From: Sphaerochaeta globosa str. Buddy
Lineage (GTDB): Bacteria > Spirochaetota > Spirochaetia > Sphaerochaetales > Sphaerochaetaceae
DNA length: 64,000 bases
Assembly: GCF_000190435.1 (NCBI RefSeq)
Contig: NC_015152.1
Coordinates: 2,176,458 to 2,240,457 of the forward strand
Direction: 5' to 3'
The notes under the pieces are model-generated. The model had not been told where the DNA came from and ran no database searches. It saw only the letters and a list, made by a program, of their open reading frames with translations. Position numbers and translations under genes: made by a program. Below, piece after piece: positions 1 through 32,314 of this stretch (position 1 is its first letter; every line of letters starts with the position of its first letter).

Positions 1-917
1 GCTTCTGCTTCAGTCTTGACCGCATACAGGTAGGAAGGCCAGTCCTGTTGGTCCACTGTGCCCAAAGCCGACCCGATGCCTACTGCATCAGCTCCCGCCT
101 GGACCAAAAGGGCAACCTCATCTCCGGTGCTCACCCCGCCCATTGCAATGAGGGGAATAGCATCCCCGCAAGCATGGCGAATGGCCGTAACAGCATGCAG
201 GGCGGCAGAAAAAATTTGCTTGCCGCTGCATCCACCCTTGCCGCCGAGCTTGTTCTGAAGAATGGGCATTCCACTAACCGGGTCCAGATGGACAATGGGC
301 CCAACGGTGTTGATGGCGACCAGCCCATCGGCACCACTGTCCATCACCGCTTTGGCGATAGAGCCGATATCCTCTACATTGGGAGTCAGCTTTACAAACA
401 GGGGGGCTTTGCAGCAGGAGGTTGCTTCCTTGATGGCCCGAACATATTCGGCAGCGATTGCTTGGTCGCAACCGATGGAGGCTCCGTATCCTACGGAGGC
501 GTGGGGGCAGGAGAAGTTCAACTCGACCAAGTCGGCAACTTCATCGAAGGCTTTCACCAACGTGATGAAATCCTCGATGCTGTTGGCTGAAAGGGAGACA
601 TTCAGCAAGGCATTGAACGTATGCTCGCTTCTCAGCATTCTCAGTTCATACAGTGCCTGCTGCAGCCCGGGATTACGCAGGCCTACTGAATTACCGAAGT
701 TTCCCGTCTGGGTTTCGCAAATGACTGGTTCCCGGTTTCCAGGATTCACTTCAACCTGGAAACTTTTGGTTGTGATAATGCCGATGCTCGGCACTTTGGT
801 ATCAAAATAGGTGATGAGCTTTGGTTTTGTGGATGCGACACCGCTGACAGTTGTCAGCAATACCTCCTTGGAACAATCCAGATGCCGACGGCCAAGCGTC
901 CTCAGAACATCCTTCAT
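1..917 (-). CDS. pyrD: Dihydroorotate dehydrogenase, class 1 (3' end cut by window edge)
   Basis: Oxidises dihydroorotate to orotate using FMN in pyrimidine synthesis; cytosolic. The minus-strand frame is open from ATG at 917 to the window edge, about 305 codons, so it is nearly full length for a family of about 305-315 residues. Visible motifs are the FMN/substrate segment GNFGNSVGLRNPG, the active-site segment ELNFSCPHA with Cys rather than Ser as catalytic base (class 1, not the membrane class 2), PLFVKLTPNV and the C-terminal phosphate-binding segment IAMGGVSTGDE. The start overlaps the pyrF stop by 4 bases (ATGA), implying translational coupling. A class 1B enzyme would need a PyrK partner, which would lie outside the window. 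Confidence 0.9.
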   Translation of the reverse strand, partial: MKDVLRTLGRRHLDCSKEVLLTTVSGVASTKPKLITYFDTKVPSIGIITTKSFQVEVNPGNREPVICETQTGNFGNSVGLRNPGLQQALYELRMLRSEHTFNALLNVSLSANSIEDFITLVKAFDEVADLVELNFSCPHASVGYGASIGCDQAIAAEYVRAIKEATSCCKAPLFVKLTPNVEDIGSIAKAVMDSGADGLVAINTVGPIVHLDPVSGMPILQNKLGGKGGCSGKQIFSAALHAVTAIRHACGDAIPLIAMGGVSTGDEVALLVQAGADAVGIGSALGTVDQQDWPSYLYAVKTEAE

Positions 918-1780
918 AGAGCTGTCTCCTTGATCAGTTGACGCAGGTTATCCTCACACATCTCAAGCCAATCCTCGGGTACCGGAGCCTTCTTCCATGG
1001 ATGGGTAAGCGCACTTGAGCTGTTGATTCTCGCCAAGGCGATGGGATACCCGACATTTCTGAGAATATCCATGACCTGGGGGGCAGAACCTCCCTGACTA
1101 CCGACACCGGGGATGAGCATGGGGACCAACTCGGCCTGATAGAACGAGGCGATAGCGCTCAATTCCTCAAGATTGGTCGCACCCACGACCGCCCCTACTT
1201 GTGATCGTTTCTGGTTATAGGAGGCAATTTGCGCTGCAACCTCAAGATAGAGAGGCCTTTGATCGGAGAGCAACAGATTCTGCAGATCCCTTCCACCCGG
1301 ATTGCTGGTTCGATTGAGGATGTAGATTCCCTTGCCCTCGAAGTCAGTGAAGGGCTTGATCGAATCGCTACCCATGTAGGGTGCCACCGTAACCGCATCC
1401 GCATTCCAAGCCTCAAAGGCTTCGTTGGCATAGTTGAGACTGCTTCGGGCGATATCACCACGCTTGCTGTCAAGAATCACCGGAATTCCGGGAAAGAAAT
1501 TCTCCACCAGATCCAGGACATCACAGAGGGCCATGCTTCCTGAAAAGTCTTCTTCCCGGGGTCTGTCCAAGCTCTGATAATACCCGATGTTGGGTTTGAA
1601 CGCAGCGGGGATAAGTCCGGAAAGAGCCATTCTTCGGAACAGTTGTTGGAAAAATGCATTCAAATCGGTACGCAAATCTCCGCTGTCAAACGGCAGAGAC
1701 TCTCTTTGAGGATCCAAACCCATACAGGCGATATTCCCTACCTGCTTCGCGCTCGCCTCTAGTAATGCTCCATACTGCAT
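914..1780 (-). CDS. pyrF: Orotidine 5'-phosphate decarboxylase, long (type 2) form
   Basis: Converts OMP to UMP, the last step of UMP synthesis. At 288 residues it is of the longer type-2 PyrF family rather than the 230-residue E. coli type. The catalytic cluster DSKRGD sits at about residues 105-110, with ACMGLDPQ near the N terminus and APYMGSDS after the core. The SD TAAGGAG lies 5-6 bases before ATG. It is third in pyrBI-pyrE-pyrF-pyrD: 9 bases after pyrE and overlapping pyrD by 4 bases. Confidence 0.93.
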   Translation of the reverse strand: MQYGALLEASAKQVGNIACMGLDPQRESLPFDSGDLRTDLNAFFQQLFRRMALSGLIPAAFKPNIGYYQSLDRPREEDFSGSMALCDVLDLVENFFPGIPVILDSKRGDIARSSLNYANEAFEAWNADAVTVAPYMGSDSIKPFTDFEGKGIYILNRTSNPGGRDLQNLLLSDQRPLYLEVAAQIASYNQKRSQVGAVVGATNLEELSAIASFYQAELVPMLIPGVGSQGGSAPQVMDILRNVGYPIALARINSSSALTHPWKKAPVPEDWLEMCEDNLRQLIKETAL

Positions 1781-1789
1781 GTTGACTCC

Positions 1790-2488
1790 TTATTTGGCAA
1801 CCATAGGAAATCCGTGTTTCTCTCCCCATGTAAAGGGGTCCTCTCTCCACTGGGACAGATAGCCTGCTTCTTCTTCATTCACATAGCCTTTTTTCAATGC
1901 GCTTTCCACCATGACATCGTAGTCGAGAATTGTGTAGAACGTGCATTTCTGATCCAGCGCTTCAAAAGCCTTGACTGCGGCATCGAAGCCATAGGTGAAG
2001 ATGGCCAAGGTATAGGGACAGACTCCCCCTGCCTTGACAATGGCCTCGACTGCCTTGATCGAAGAGCCTCCTGTGGAGATAAGATCCTCTATGAGAAGCA
2101 CCTTTGCCCCTTCATAGGATCCACTCTGCCCCAAGCCCTCGATTTGTTGCCCCAGTCCATGGTCCTTACCCGAGCTGCGCACATAGCTCAGCGGTTTTGC
2201 AAGCCGGTCGGCCAATGTGGTTGCATGGGGAATGCCGGCGGTAGCCGTTCCCGCAATATTGTCCGGTTCGAATTGCAGGCTTTCCAGCATGGCGGCAAAG
2301 GCATCACAAACCAAGGATCGGGCTTTCGGTGATGCAAGCAATCTGCGGTTGTCGTTGTAGATGGGCATGCGGTACCCGCTTGCCCAGGTGAAGGGTTGCT
2401 GTACCTGTAGCTTGATTGCTCCAAGATCCAGCGCCACATGTGCCAAGAGAGGCCCATAATGATTCGTTATTTCAGTAGTGCTTTTCAT
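1790..2488 (-). CDS. pyrE: Orotate phosphoribosyltransferase
   Basis: Joins orotate to PRPP to give OMP. It is 232 residues long. The PRPP-binding loop VLLIEDLISTGGSS lies at about residues 134-147 and is the defining motif; the N-terminal part has the orotate-binding segment around TWASGYRMPIY. SD TGGAG precedes the ATG by 6 bases. It lies 17 bases downstream of pyrBI and 9 bases upstream of pyrF in one operon. Its co-substrate is made by the PRPP synthetase encoded at about 31-32.3 kb. Confidence 0.94.
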   Translation of the reverse strand: MKSTTEITNHYGPLLAHVALDLGAIKLQVQQPFTWASGYRMPIYNDNRRLLASPKARSLVCDAFAAMLESLQFEPDNIAGTATAGIPHATTLADRLAKPLSYVRSSGKDHGLGQQIEGLGQSGSYEGAKVLLIEDLISTGGSSIKAVEAIVKAGGVCPYTLAIFTYGFDAAVKAFEALDQKCTFYTILDYDVMVESALKKGYVNEEEAGYLSQWREDPFTWGEKHGFPMVAK

Positions 2489-2505: not shown

Positions 2506-4110
2506 TTATTTTTTCCTGCTCTTCCAGATTTCCTTGAAGGTATGCTTTTTCCCGCAGTAGGCGCAAGCAAAACGATTGTCGTTGGTCCGATAGAAACGTG
2601 CGGGAACCCCTTCACTTTGATCGGGATGGGAAATGCATGCTTCGTTGGTACACCCGAGGTCCTCAAAGTTATAGATTCGTGGCGGTAGGTGCAACCGATA
2701 TTTGTTTACCACCTTGCCTCCCTTGATAAGATTGAGCGTACACCCCGGAGCTACGGCACTCAGGCGTTTGAGATGCTTTCGGCTCAGTTCATACAATCCA
2801 GGCCTGAAGATAATGCCCTTGTAAAGCGTGCCGTCCTTATGACCGGTACTGACCCATTCCCCGCCTTTGGCTTCATCCAGACCCAAAACGCTGCTGATAA
2901 GGCGCATATGGTCACGAATCTCGCTGGGGCAATCGCCTTTGCATATGTGGTCGATAACCAAGCCGTCGTGAATCGGCTGCACCCCTTCACTGATCACCTT
3001 CTCCCTGAGTTGCTGGCAACTCAGGTCCACTTCCTGAATGTAATCTTCCTCTTCCGGCTTCATTGCAAGCTTTGCAGGCTGGAATTCAGAGCCGATCCTT
3101 CCTGCAAGTAAGGCAAGCAGGACTATGCGCACATACATGCCGTTGATCGACTGCCGCTCCCATCCGTTGAAAGGTGTTTCATCGAGGAAGGTAGGAATGG
3201 TCGGGGTTACCTTGTGCCGTGGGAGCGGATGATAGAATTTGGTTCCTGCTTTAAGGGTATCCATAAACTCCTTACGGAATGTGATGGAGCGTCTCAATTC
3301 AGCCTGACGCTGCAGAATCCGGTCACCCATGCGTTCCAGCTGGGGTCTGGTGAAATACCATTTATCCGCCACATCGCTTTGCTGCAGGTATTGCTCGATG
3401 GATTCGAACAACCGTACTTCATATCCATTCTCCTGCATTCTTTGCACATACGCCTCAGGCATGGCCAATTCAACAGGAGCAATCAAATCTACTTTGACGT
3501 GCTTGAAGATTTTCAATCCATCCGCCTTGGAGTGCACGGTGCGGCCATGGAAGAGATCTCCTACCAAGGCAAGATGCACAGAATCACAACTCCAGTTGTT
3601 GTCTTCAAGGAAGGTAAACTCATCCAACAGTTCCTGGGTTGGATGCTCGTGCTTTCCATCCCCGGCATTGATGAAGGCCGGCTTGCGATAGAGCTTGTTA
3701 CGCTTCGCATAGTTGGCACAAGTGTCCTCGAGCCAGCGACACACACCTTCAAGCTTGCTGCGCACGATGAAGATGGTATTGGCATAACCGCTGAGTGTAT
3801 AAAAGGTATCGGCATAACTCTCCCCTTTATTGAAGGAGGACGAGTCGCTATTCAGCTCTGACACCTTGGCATGATGAAAATTGGCGGCATTGCGGAACGA
3901 TTCCTTGGTTCTGGTGCTGTCCTCAAGGAATACCTCATAGATACCGAAATCCTTGTCATCGATCCGATATTGTTCAAGGGTGGCTGCATCTTGGTTTTCC
4001 ATCGCCCTCTTGAGAATCTTTACTTGTTCAAAGAGGTACAATCTCTCCTCAATGGAGAAGTCCTCGATGACGCACAACGACCGTGAGGCAAATACATTCT
4101 GCTGTTCCAT
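2506..4110 (-). CDS. pyrBI: Fused aspartate carbamoyltransferase, catalytic plus regulatory chains
   Basis: Condenses carbamoyl phosphate with aspartate, the committed step of pyrimidine synthesis. The single 534-residue chain holds a complete PyrB part (carbamoyl-phosphate loop STRTKESFRN, HPTQELLDEF, PLPRHK), then from about residue 350 a PyrI-like allosteric part. The C-terminal zinc site is intact: a C-x4-C pair near residues 486-491 (CTNEAC) and a C-x2-C pair near 515-518 (CAYC). Such PyrB-PyrI fusions are known from a few lineages; E. coli uses two separate chains. A retained zinc site and nucleotide domain suggest ATP/CTP-type allostery. ATG at 4110 has SD AAGGAG and lies just after a terminator-like hairpin. 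Confidence 0.93.
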   Translation of the reverse strand: MEQQNVFASRSLCVIEDFSIEERLYLFEQVKILKRAMENQDAATLEQYRIDDKDFGIYEVFLEDSTRTKESFRNAANFHHAKVSELNSDSSSFNKGESYADTFYTLSGYANTIFIVRSKLEGVCRWLEDTCANYAKRNKLYRKPAFINAGDGKHEHPTQELLDEFTFLEDNNWSCDSVHLALVGDLFHGRTVHSKADGLKIFKHVKVDLIAPVELAMPEAYVQRMQENGYEVRLFESIEQYLQQSDVADKWYFTRPQLERMGDRILQRQAELRRSITFRKEFMDTLKAGTKFYHPLPRHKVTPTIPTFLDETPFNGWERQSINGMYVRIVLLALLAGRIGSEFQPAKLAMKPEEEDYIQEVDLSCQQLREKVISEGVQPIHDGLVIDHICKGDCPSEIRDHMRLISSVLGLDEAKGGEWVSTGHKDGTLYKGIIFRPGLYELSRKHLKRLSAVAPGCTLNLIKGGKVVNKYRLHLPPRIYNFEDLGCTNEACISHPDQSEGVPARFYRTNDNRFACAYCGKKHTFKEIWKSRKK

Positions 4111-4122
4111 CTTCGCTCCTTC

Positions 4123-4151
4123 AAAAAAAAAGCCGGCCCTACGACCGACTT
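4123..4151 (-). terminator. Intrinsic terminator in the pyrBI leader (attenuator)
   Basis: On the minus strand a 9-bp stem (AAGTCGGTC pairing with GGCCGGCTT, two G-U pairs) with a 4-base loop is followed directly by nine T residues. It ends about a dozen bases before the pyrBI start codon and overlaps the pyrBI SD spacing region. The stop codon of a short leader ORF falls in its loop. This geometry is that of a transcription attenuator; it may also stop transcripts reading through from wzc. Confidence 0.85.
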
Positions 4152-4222
4152 TTCAATGCAATGCAATATGGGAAATACCCGCTGGTGGACTGATATACAC
4201 ATCTGTATCGTTTCCTACCCAT
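4139..4222 (-). CDS. Putative pyrBI leader peptide (27 codons), pyrL-like
   Basis: A 27-codon ORF starts at ATG 4222 with a perfect SD (GGAGGG, 5-base spacing) and ends at TAG 4139-4141 inside the terminator loop. It begins M-G-R-K-R-Y-R-C and contains three Arg codons (AGG, CGA, AGA) in its first seven, a fourth near its end, and four Tyr codons. In E. coli, pyrL is translated through the attenuator so that a ribosome close behind RNA polymerase prevents hairpin formation when UTP is low. The position, SD and stop placement match that scheme. The Arg-rich start could instead sense arginine, since carbamoyl phosphate is shared by both pathways. Sequence alone cannot separate these. Confidence 0.7.
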   Translation of the reverse strand: MGRKRYRCVYQSTSGYFPYCIALKSRS

Positions 4223-4279
4223 AGGTTCCCTCCAATTTTCTTCTCAGACCTTAGCAGAGAGAAGCAGTTCTGTCTAGAG

Positions 4280-6892
4280 TCAGTCCTCTTGTTTTTTGCC
4301 TATCGCCAGTTCATCCATCTCGATCACGCTGAGGCTGTCAAACGGAACGTTTGCCTTCTTGGCAGGCTTTTCAGATTGTTTCGGTGCTACCGGTACTGCT
4401 GGTGTAGCCGATTTCTCCTCCACCTGTACAACGGGAGCACTTTGCGATGCAACAGAAGGGCTGGCTTTCGCTTCGAAAAAAGCTGAACTATGCGTACTAG
4501 CATGAGCTTGAGCCCATGCCTCCAATGTCCTGAATTCTGCATGCTCTCCAAAGGCGAGAACCGGGTCAAACTGCTCGGTGGTGATTTTACCACGGTTTTT
4601 AAGGTCAAGCTTATAGCGCCTGCGATACCACGAGGTGGAGCGCCTTCGCATATGGCCTTTGCTGTTTTTTCTCGCATTCCCCTGCCCTTGGGCATATCCG
4701 TAGCGATAGGCGTAATGACCGTAGCCATAACCATATCCCTTGCCATAGCCGTAGCGATAGCTGGAAGAAGAACCGGGAAGCACTCCGTTAAACACAAACC
4801 CAATAAGCGGAGCGTTGGCCGTTTTCAGGTTGGAAACCAAATCAAACAAGGAACCCTTGCTGGTTATACCGGCACGTACGGTAATGATCAGGCCGTCTAC
4901 ATGCTTGCTGATCGAAAGCAGCTCACTTGCAGACTCAAGTGGAGGCGCATCGATGATGATGAAATCGTAAAGGTTCTCCAAGTATGCAATACCCTGAATG
5001 TAACGGGGATTGGAGAAGATTGCAGCAGGTACCAGCGGAGCATTGCCTGGGGGCAGCAAATGCAAGGTAGGAGTATTTTCGAAAGGTTGGATCAAGCAAT
5101 CCTCGAGCCTTGCCTTTTTGGTGACAAAGTCTACCAAACCCACTTCCCGATGCTTGAGACGGAAATACCGCTCCATACTCGGAAGGCGCAGATCACCATC
5201 GATGACCAGAACCTTGCTTCCCATCTGGGCAAGAGCTAGAGCCATATTGCCGATGATGGTACTTTTTCCTTCAGCCATAGCGCAGGAAGTGATGGAAAAG
5301 ACTTTCTTATCTGTTTTGTTGTACAACATGTTGGCTACCAGCTTGAATCGTTCTGATTCAAAGGAAAGCGGATCGTTGTACACAGAAAGGGTTGGATACT
5401 TATCGTTCTCGGAGACCTTCATCATGGGAATCCAACCAAGAATGGGAATTTCCTTTCCTACGATTTTCTGAATCTGCTGTTCACTCTGGATGGAGACATC
5501 GAGAGTCTCAACGCCCAACGTAAGCAAGAGTCCTATGGCAGCACCAAGCAACATGGCTACAGCAAGAATCAGTAATTTATTGGGACTGACCGGATTGAGG
5601 GGTAGATTGGCGGCGTCGACGACTGTCACGTTGCCGGTGACTGCTGCCTCAGTCAATTTCACCTCTTCAAGCATCTCTCTGAGTTTCAAACCGATTGCTT
5701 CATAAATCTGGACATCGCGCTGCAACTCGCTGAGCTTGCGTTCAAGCACGGGAAGCTGTGAAAGCTCTTCTACGAAAACCTCACCCCGCATCTCCAGCAC
5801 TTGAATTCCCACCTCGGTAGTCAAGGCTTGTACGATGGCCTGGGTGTAGGCTTCATTCCCGTAGGAACGGGTCAGCGTGGAAATACGGTTGAGCAATTCC
5901 TTGGTAACCTGACTGATTGCACTGCTGATAACATACGTGCGCGATGAGGAGTCCAATACCGTGGAGGGAGCCACCGTTGCGGTGTTCCCTGCTGGATTGG
6001 ATAGTGATTCATACATGGTAAGCTCAGTTTTCCAAGCACCCAGGTCGGCAAGCTTAGCCATCACGACGCTGTCGTTCTTGATCTGGTCCAAAGCTAACAC
6101 ACCAGCGATTCCAGCTGCTTTCAGTGAATTGGTATACGATTCAATGAAGACTTGCGATTCCTTTAATTGTAGCTTCAGTGGTTCCAATCGAAGCGTGTAA
6201 TAAGAAATCTGTTCTACCAACAATGAACTTTTGTCGGTAAGCTGGATGATATCACTGTTCTCCCTGAAATCACCGAGGGAATCGCTTGCATTGGAAAGTT
6301 CGGCGTCGTTGATGGGAATCTGCGATTCAATGAATTCACGCTGGGCGGTCTTGGAGTTCTTCGCAATGCCGGTGAGTAGTGAGTCATAACTTGCTGCCAA
6401 GGCATTGGAAAAATCACGGGCAAAGGCAGGGCTGGCATCGGTTACCGCAATGCGGACGATGTTCGTGTCCTTCACAGTCGACACGACGATGCGTTCCTTG
6501 ACATTTCCCAGAGCTTCCTTACTTCGATAGTCAACACCGTCAGCGTTGTGATAGGAAGCCAAATCCAAGGTACTTAGTGCATATTCAATATTCTTGCGGC
6601 TGGTGATCAGCTCTACTTCCGTAGCAATTTTCGTAGTGGATGTAGAAACATCCAACAGGGATTCAAACGAGGAGGAACGTTGGATCGGCTCAACCAAAAC
6701 AGAAACCTGACTCTCATATTGGGGAACAGCTATCTGCAAATATCCCACAGCAAGACCCATAACTACAATCAAGCCAATGACAAACCAGCGGAACCGTTTG
6801 CGGAAAATATGCAGAAGCTCAGCTATTGAGATGCCTTCTTCTCCACTATCATACGGTGAAAGAGTATTCTGCAACTCTTCTTGTTGACTCAT
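4280..6892 (-). CDS. Polysaccharide co-polymerase / BY-type tyrosine kinase (Wzc-like)
   Basis: An inner-membrane protein controlling chain length and export of a surface polysaccharide. Its 870 residues show an N-terminal Wzz domain with a first membrane helix at about 35-55, a long coiled-coil periplasmic part, a second helix at about 431-452, then a cytoplasmic BY-kinase domain: Walker A region AMAEGKST near 536-545, Walker A' VLVIDGDLR, Walker B FIIIDAPP near 642-647. A cluster of about ten tyrosines (GYGKGYGYGYGH-type) lies at about 711-737, the usual autophosphorylation site, but followed by an unusual tail of about 130 residues. It lies 12 bases after the wza-like gene. No glycosyltransferases lie nearby, so the polymer is unknown. 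Confidence 0.88.
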   Translation of the reverse strand: MSQQEELQNTLSPYDSGEEGISIAELLHIFRKRFRWFVIGLIVVMGLAVGYLQIAVPQYESQVSVLVEPIQRSSSFESLLDVSTSTTKIATEVELITSRKNIEYALSTLDLASYHNADGVDYRSKEALGNVKERIVVSTVKDTNIVRIAVTDASPAFARDFSNALAASYDSLLTGIAKNSKTAQREFIESQIPINDAELSNASDSLGDFRENSDIIQLTDKSSLLVEQISYYTLRLEPLKLQLKESQVFIESYTNSLKAAGIAGVLALDQIKNDSVVMAKLADLGAWKTELTMYESLSNPAGNTATVAPSTVLDSSSRTYVISSAISQVTKELLNRISTLTRSYGNEAYTQAIVQALTTEVGIQVLEMRGEVFVEELSQLPVLERKLSELQRDVQIYEAIGLKLREMLEEVKLTEAAVTGNVTVVDAANLPLNPVSPNKLLILAVAMLLGAAIGLLLTLGVETLDVSIQSEQQIQKIVGKEIPILGWIPMMKVSENDKYPTLSVYNDPLSFESERFKLVANMLYNKTDKKVFSITSCAMAEGKSTIIGNMALALAQMGSKVLVIDGDLRLPSMERYFRLKHREVGLVDFVTKKARLEDCLIQPFENTPTLHLLPPGNAPLVPAAIFSNPRYIQGIAYLENLYDFIIIDAPPLESASELLSISKHVDGLIITVRAGITSKGSLFDLVSNLKTANAPLIGFVFNGVLPGSSSSYRYGYGKGYGYGYGHYAYRYGYAQGQGNARKNSKGHMRRRSTSWYRRRYKLDLKNRGKITTEQFDPVLAFGEHAEFRTLEAWAQAHASTHSSAFFEAKASPSVASQSAPVVQVEEKSATPAVPVAPKQSEKPAKKANVPFDSLSVIEMDELAIGKKQED

Positions 6893-31021: not shown

Positions 31022-32314
31022 TTAGTCGCGGTCCGGGTCACTAGCACTGGCCCCTGGCAGGGGAGCTTGTGGATTTGCCTGGCTGTTGTCTATCAGGATT
31101 TGGATGAACTTACGGTTATCCAAAAGAGGACTGATCGAACGTCCGTGGTGCAGGCGGCTGATGACTCGGGCAAAAAGCTCGGTGATATCAGCTTGTATGT
31201 ACCACTCTTTGTCCAAGAGGTCGTGTCCGTGGAACACTGCGTTGGTCCCGATGATTCGATAGAAGATTCCTTCCTTGTATGCGGCATCAAAATCCTCAAC
31301 CGCACTGGCGTTGAACAAAGGAAGACTGACCATACAGATGATTTTCTTGGCCCCGAGGTTTGTCAATTCGCGCATGGCGATGATCATGGTGCCACCGGTG
31401 GCGAGCATATCATCGGCGATGAGTACTGTCTTGCCGCTGACATCACCAAGAAGGTTGATGCTCTTGATATTCGAATGCTTGGCGTCCTTGCTGACAATGG
31501 AGTAGTCACGTTCCTTGTACAACATGGCCAAGGGTCGATGGAGGGCTTGGGCGTAGAATTTATTCCGACTTATGGCTCCGGTATCGGGAGCGACGACCAC
31601 CAGCTCAGGATCACTGAAATCGATGAGCTTATGCAAGGCGATCAACGTCTGATAAGAAGCATGCAGGTTTTCCAGATGCAAATCTGAGAAACTGTTCTCA
31701 ATCTCCCGGCTGTGAATGTCCAGGGTAATAATGCGTTCGACCCCGAGCATCTCACAAATCCGGCCGAACATGGCAGCTGTCAAAGCTTCACGTCCACCCT
31801 TCTTATGCTGCCTCGAGTACGGATAGGTGGGAAGGACCAATGTCACACTTTCCGAACCAGCAAGCTGAAGAGCATTGATGGTGGTAAACAGAAACATCAG
31901 ATGGTCGTTCACCGATAGCTTGACCGGCTCATCAGAACCAGCCACTTTTACCGGTTCGCTATTGGATAGGTCATAGATGATGAAAATCCTCAACCCTCTG
32001 ACGGCATCCAGAATCTCGGCCTTCTCTTCCCCATTTGCAAACTTGGTATATTTTACCTTGATCGTGAAATCAGGACATTGAAAGGTGGTAGGGCACTTTG
32101 TCCTGGGAATACGCTTGTTGTTCAGGTCATCCATCAGGGTCACAGTCCTCAGGATTTCTTCTTCACTCATCCCGTGACGTTTCGCCAAAGCAGTGGAGAG
32201 CTTTTCATAGCGCTCCAGATAGAGACGGCGAAGGTGCTTCACAACCTTGCCGGTGAAATATTCTGAACCGGGACCTGAGATAATCCCAAGCTTATGGGGT
32301 TTGATGATGCTCAT
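31022..32314 (-). CDS. prs: Ribose-phosphate pyrophosphokinase, extended form
   Basis: Makes PRPP from ribose-5-phosphate and ATP for nucleotide, His and Trp synthesis. The reading from ATG 32314 is 430 residues, against about 310-320 in the common class. Core motifs are intact: FANGEEKAEI, the flexible-loop region LPTYPYSRQHKKGGREALTA, ITLDIHSREIE, VVAPDTGAISR and the PRPP loop VLIADDMLATGGTM. The extra length is an insertion of about 60 residues near residues 20-80 and a C-terminal tail. No clear SD is seen; GTG 32335 is an alternative start. Supplies PRPP to the pyrE enzyme. Confidence 0.92.
   Translation of the reverse strand: MSIIKPHKLGIISGPGSEYFTGKVVKHLRRLYLERYEKLSTALAKRHGMSEEEILRTVTLMDDLNNKRIPRTKCPTTFQCPDFTIKVKYTKFANGEEKAEILDAVRGLRIFIIYDLSNSEPVKVAGSDEPVKLSVNDHLMFLFTTINALQLAGSESVTLVLPTYPYSRQHKKGGREALTAAMFGRICEMLGVERIITLDIHSREIENSFSDLHLENLHASYQTLIALHKLIDFSDPELVVVAPDTGAISRNKFYAQALHRPLAMLYKERDYSIVSKDAKHSNIKSINLLGDVSGKTVLIADDMLATGGTMIIAMRELTNLGAKKIICMVSLPLFNASAVEDFDAAYKEGIFYRIIGTNAVFHGHDLLDKEWYIQADITELFARVISRLHHGRSISPLLDNRKFIQILIDNSQANPQAPLPGASASDPDRD

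Follow-up and report, generated by a model that had tools for sequence, protein, structure and literature searches.

A putative pyrL-like transcription attenuator ahead of fused pyrBI genes in Sphaerochaeta globosa and other spirochaetes

Layout of the pyrBI locus

The window analysed here is a 64,000-nucleotide stretch of the Sphaerochaeta globosa str. Buddy genome, and all of the features described below lie on its minus strand. The pyrBI gene (2506..4110) encodes the catalytic and regulatory chains of aspartate carbamoyltransferase as a fused PyrB-PyrI product, which matches NCBIfam model NF009916 at 817 bits, and is followed in the same operon by pyrE (1790..2488), pyrF (914..1780) and a pyrD-like dihydroorotate dehydrogenase gene that extends beyond the window edge (1..917). 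Upstream, a wzc-like gene for a polysaccharide co-polymerase/tyrosine kinase (4280..6892) adjoins the pyrBI leader. This gene stays beside pyrBI through much of the family Sphaerochaetaceae, which may point to a link between polysaccharide export and the UTP/UDP-sugar pool. Elsewhere in the window, a 438-codon open frame contains a weak phosphoribosyltransferase-like match to UPRTase and PyrR models (about 31322-31507).

Directly downstream of the wzc stop codon, between wzc and a short leader ORF, is a promoter-like element (4248..4276) composed of TAGACA (4276-4271), a 17-nt spacer and TAAGGT (4253-4248), the -10-like hexamer being preceded by TGC. This TAGACA-17-TAAGGT element was not listed by a generic consensus promoter scan. 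Among 11 aligned genus members CTxGACA and the -10 region are conserved, and a -35-like motif occurs in 46 of 67 family leaders compared with 13% in shuffles. In several genomes (window 4271-4282; L032, L040, L050) the TAGACA element begins with the TAG stop codon of the wzc-like gene. Inspection of the window sequence revealed no obvious T run just after the -10; in E. coli, UTP-dependent reiterative transcription at the promoter provides a second control.

The leader ORF (4139..4222) starts with ATG at 4222, separated by 6 nt from the Shine-Dalgarno sequence GGAGG (4229..4233), and spans 27 codons, MGRKRYRCVYQSTSGYFPYCIALKSRS, followed by TAG at 4141-4139. Towards its end the ORF crosses a U-rich stretch, TATTTCCCATATTGCATTGCATT (4155..4177), proposed here as a UTP-sensitive pause region, and then enters an intrinsic terminator hairpin, GAAAAGTCGGTC-GTAG-GGCCGGCTTTTT (4127..4154), whose tetraloop GTAG (4142-4139) holds the ORF's stop codon. 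The terminator has a nine-T tract (4123..4131), directly followed by the pyrBI ribosome site GAAGGAG (4122-4116) and the pyrBI ATG at 4110. An earlier note on this DNA had described the 27-codon ORF, the perfect Shine-Dalgarno sequence, the stop in the terminator loop, the nine T residues and the pyrBI ribosome site, and each proved exact base for base, as did its Arg-rich start, in which AGG, CGA and AGA are codons 3, 5 and 7.

Terminator, leader frame and U-rich RNA across spirochaetes

The 47-nt hairpin segment of the window folds at -16.6 kcal/mol (z -3.2), with 0 of 200 shuffles equally good, and no structure is evident in the leader RNA that precedes it (z -0.24). Whole-genome searches of 139 family genomes recovered a pyrBI relative in most, and we read 69 upstream regions from the family together with 40 from other spirochaete families, calling terminators with a second caller since the first favoured long low-energy hairpins and overlooked some. 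Of the 69 Sphaerochaetaceae regions, 67 have a terminator-like hairpin plus T tract close to pyrBI (the call in G137 is doubtful; G126 and G132 have none), in most relatives 9-40 nt upstream of pyrB. Family hairpins are stable, with a mean z of -4.7 and 39/39 below -2. Terminators were also called in the Treponema-like genomes G161, G181 and G272 and in other spirochaete families (G140, G141, G154, G142, G162, G179, G293, G211 and others), and were not called before more distant fused pyrBI genes such as those of G143, G145 and G150. Stem sequences differ widely among Sphaerochaetaceae members; within the genus we found one compensatory change in the terminator stem, G-C to A-U. RNAalifold on the genus recovered the terminator plus one helix spanning the promoter, which is not expected in the transcript. 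When the genome was searched for a second copy of the hairpin, no site came closer than two mismatches.

For the leader ORF, we picked starts solely by Shine-Dalgarno match and start codon, blind to where the frame ends. Matches of at least 5 bases gave 54 leaders, which clustering reduced to 39 non-redundant ones (the test covers the members with a strong Shine-Dalgarno sequence, which about a quarter of the family lacks). The frame was open to within 15 nt of the hairpin in 39/39 of these spirochaete leaders, compared with 11/39 and 10/39 for the other two frames, and dinucleotide shuffles predicted 14.9/39 (joint log10 P about -18, to be taken as an index only, as the leaders are related and not independent trials). 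One leader counted among the 39, that of G089, starts within the tail of the wzc-like gene; G023 was excluded for the same reason. Stop codons span -11 to +80 nt relative to the hairpin start and never fall earlier, and gaps between the leader ORFs of close relatives come in three-base steps. In the close relative G091 a frame change leads to a new stop one base upstream of the hairpin, and in G111 and G106, and by eye also in G162 and G211, the ORF runs right through the hairpin.

The leader peptide has a pN/pS of 0.86, a value from few changes, and appears to drift nearly neutrally, its sequence itself probably hardly mattering. What is conserved is the access of a translating ribosome to the hairpin, the position of the frame being kept and its sequence not. 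The earlier note had named a comparison of relatives as the point on which its reading could fail, proposing to test whether ORF, stop position and hairpin co-vary; the comparison favoured the reading. Relatives retain the Shine-Dalgarno sequence together with the start, the open frame and the hairpin, most genus members also sharing the 6-nt spacing, whereas the stop position, length and sequence of the ORF drift. The three Treponema-like genomes (L079-L081) combine a TTGACA-type promoter and an 18-codon leader with a different hairpin and have near-identical peptides. By eye, the leader ORFs of G293, G159 and G179 (L095, L093, L092) have no Shine-Dalgarno sequence, lie near a promoter-like -10 and may be leaderless; they still run near or through the hairpin.

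Many relatives resemble the window in having about 120-140 nt between the end of the wzc-like gene and the hairpin, with a promoter and a leader ORF downstream of the gene; in the window itself the distance exceeds 120 nt, and a stop placed as in rph-pyrE is absent there. Three genomes, G023, G025 and G028 (L058, L051, L072), lack the separate promoter and leader ORF, and their upstream wzc-like gene stops 10, 9 and 6 nt short of the hairpin, respectively. Here the end of the upstream gene appears to take the place of the leader ORF, in an rph-pyrE-like arrangement.

The RNA ahead of the hairpin is rich in U. Across the 39 leaders the 30 nt immediately ahead of the hairpin have a T fraction of 0.40, compared with 0.235 for the preceding part of the ORF (p 2e-7), although tract strength varies and G104, G098 and G020 have only short pyrimidine runs. 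Because the enrichment is present at all three codon positions and exceeds that at control terminators of the same genome (T fraction 0.27), it suggests a role at the RNA level, such as a UTP-sensitive pause. An antiterminator duplex, sought in the same 39 leaders, was not detected (mean z +0.41, 0/39 below -2), local hairpins in the leaders did not exceed shuffled sequences in stability (mean z 0.13), and the leader folds contained no conserved structure apart from the terminator. Given this lack of an antiterminator and of any other conserved structure, the ribosome itself is likely to be the antiterminator of the pyrBI leader. Near the U-rich tract of the genus a GGG..CCC mini-hairpin can be drawn by eye; neither the leader folds nor RNAalifold supported it.

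A candidate coupling mechanism and its rivals

We consider it quite probable that the pyrBI leader works by translation-coupled attenuation of transcription, in the manner of pyrL/pyrBI, with a UTP-sensitive pause. RNA polymerase would initiate at the promoter after wzc, and a ribosome would load on the leader ORF as polymerase crosses the U-rich stretch ahead of the hairpin. At low UTP, polymerase would linger in this stretch and the ribosome would catch up; on reaching the stop codon in the hairpin loop it would cover the 5' arm and prevent the hairpin from forming, letting transcription proceed into pyrBI-pyrE-pyrF-pyrD. With plentiful UTP, polymerase would outpace the ribosome, the hairpin would fold and transcription would stop at the T tract. 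We infer translation of the ORF, pausing and control of readthrough from sequence, and take UTP to be the signal on the strength of the U enrichment and the identity of the controlled gene. The pyrL-like reading of the earlier note is thus largely borne out by the 39/39 open frames, the U-rich RNA and the missing antiterminator, and extends to more lineages than it had claimed.

The simplest competing account, which the earlier note had itself held in reserve, is an ordinary wzc terminator with a chance ORF, pyrBI being transcribed from its own unregulated start or by leaky readthrough. The hairpin does lie downstream of wzc, and intergenic terminators are common, 150 having been counted in a 464-kb portion of this genome. 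A non-genic Shine-Dalgarno start lies 24-130 nt upstream of only 9 of these, however, and in 4 of the 9 the frame is open to the hairpin; among those 4 the pyrBI leader alone has a compact terminator (by inspection). Termination of wzc readthrough is unlikely because the promoter-like element, its motif enriched in the family, intervenes between wzc and the leader; a terminator so close to pyrB would also block any transcript begun upstream of it, and neither the excess of open frames over the shuffle expectation nor the recurrence of the Shine-Dalgarno sequence and its spacing in relatives fits a chance ORF. We regard this account as very unlikely. Slightly less probable still, in our judgement, is the arginine sensing that the earlier note had raised as a second possibility, by which ribosomes stalled at Arg codons 3, 5 and 7 would report arginine via the shared carbamoyl phosphate pool. 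Over the eight codons that follow the start, Arg makes up 28% in the genus, but 12.5% in other genera, where 3 of 29 leaders have none, so that the enrichment is mostly a genus trait. The Arg codons are, moreover, far from the hairpin, no antiterminator pairing was detected and the peptide evolves almost neutrally; early stalling would still allow the hairpin to fold, and starvation would then shut the operon off.

A leader RNA that binds a protein or ligand, whether of the PyrR type, a ribosomal-protein leader or a riboswitch, deserves almost no credence. Its one trace is a sub-threshold Rfam match to S4-Fusobacteriales at 25.4 bits, against a cut-off of 48.8; no Rfam family matched the window at cut-off, PyrR RNA was absent from 31 genomes in searches that detected the controls, the PyrR protein model stayed below cut-off with a best match that reads as a hypoxanthine-type phosphoribosyltransferase, and the terminator is the sole conserved structure. 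More weight, though still the status of an unlikely alternative, goes to a coupled attenuator that senses how translation and transcription are balanced overall (ppGpp, growth rate or ribosome supply), or in which the U tract slows polymerase independently of the UTP pool. The strong support is indeed for the coupling geometry, and UTP sensing draws on U content and gene identity. Against such a general sensor, the layout occurs before pyrBI only among the four pyrimidine-related genes checked, with no leader ORF and terminator in the 160 nt read at carA, pyrG and a UPRTase-domain gene of the same genome (L145, L148, L146), it is rare at the genome's other terminators, and the enrichment is in U and not in peptide composition.

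Returning to UTP-sensitive coupling, we lean towards a broader view in which ribosome-polymerase coupling serves as a spirochaete-wide UTP control of pyrBI, in Sphaerochaetaceae, Treponema-like genomes and several other families. It would either have arisen separately from E. coli pyrL or predate both, and the leader ORF would be freely replaceable, its stop lying before, in or beyond the hairpin or its role passing to a wzc-like tail.

Relation to known attenuation systems

The pyrL mechanism is a textbook case, experimentally known from enteric bacteria. Naville and Gautheret 2010 (PMC2965389) noted that leader-peptide systems were then known only in Proteobacteria and Actinobacteria, and added Firmicutes. 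We found no description of pyrBI attenuation in spirochaetes in the open literature searched, and an earlier mention is possible, for example in the Turnbough and Switzer 2008 review; as far as searched, the switch would be of a known kind in a phylum new for pyrL-type control. A further instance that spans a phylum and has diverged into dozens of natural variants would provide a comparative data set on which parts matter: the open ribosome path to the hairpin and the U-rich RNA before it are kept, and the peptide sequence and stop position are not. Control of this type also predicts tight transcription-translation coupling in spirochaetes, for which the pyrBI leader offers a simple reporter.

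The closest counterpart is UTP-sensitive attenuation of E. coli pyrBI (Roland et al. 1988, cited in both PMC4824070 and PMC5021804). The controlled gene is the same, as is the order of promoter, Shine-Dalgarno sequence, short ORF, U/C-rich stretch, GC hairpin with T8-9 and pyrB Shine-Dalgarno sequence; both lack an antiterminator, and in both the peptide sequence is apparently irrelevant. E. coli pyrL, however, has 44 codons and reads across the hairpin, ending 3 nt short of pyrB, whereas the window ORF has 27 and ends in the loop, although the ORFs of some spirochaete relatives pass through the hairpin as pyrL does. PyrB and PyrI are fused in the spirochaete, unlike in E. coli, and by inspection a hairpin precedes the U-rich region of the E. 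coli leader, where spirochaete leaders have none beyond chance. The two leaders, from different phyla, have no recognisable sequence relation.

In E. coli rph-pyrE, regulation of pyrE is believed to depend on where the rph stop codon lies with respect to the attenuator (PMC2784333). G023, G025 and G028 are similar in that the last ribosome of the upstream gene would replace a leader ribosome, with the difference that the upstream gene is wzc-like and the downstream gene pyrBI, and that the window genome has its own leader ORF and promoter. PyrR attenuators (Bacillus; Rfam RF00515) likewise act by transcription attenuation of pyrimidine synthesis genes, but in the spirochaete neither a PyrR protein above cut-off nor a PyrR RNA element nor an antiterminator was found. 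The amino-acid attenuators of trp and his share the combination of leader peptide and terminator, and differ from the spirochaete leaders in having a run of control codons, which the latter do not keep across genera, and a mutually exclusive antiterminator.
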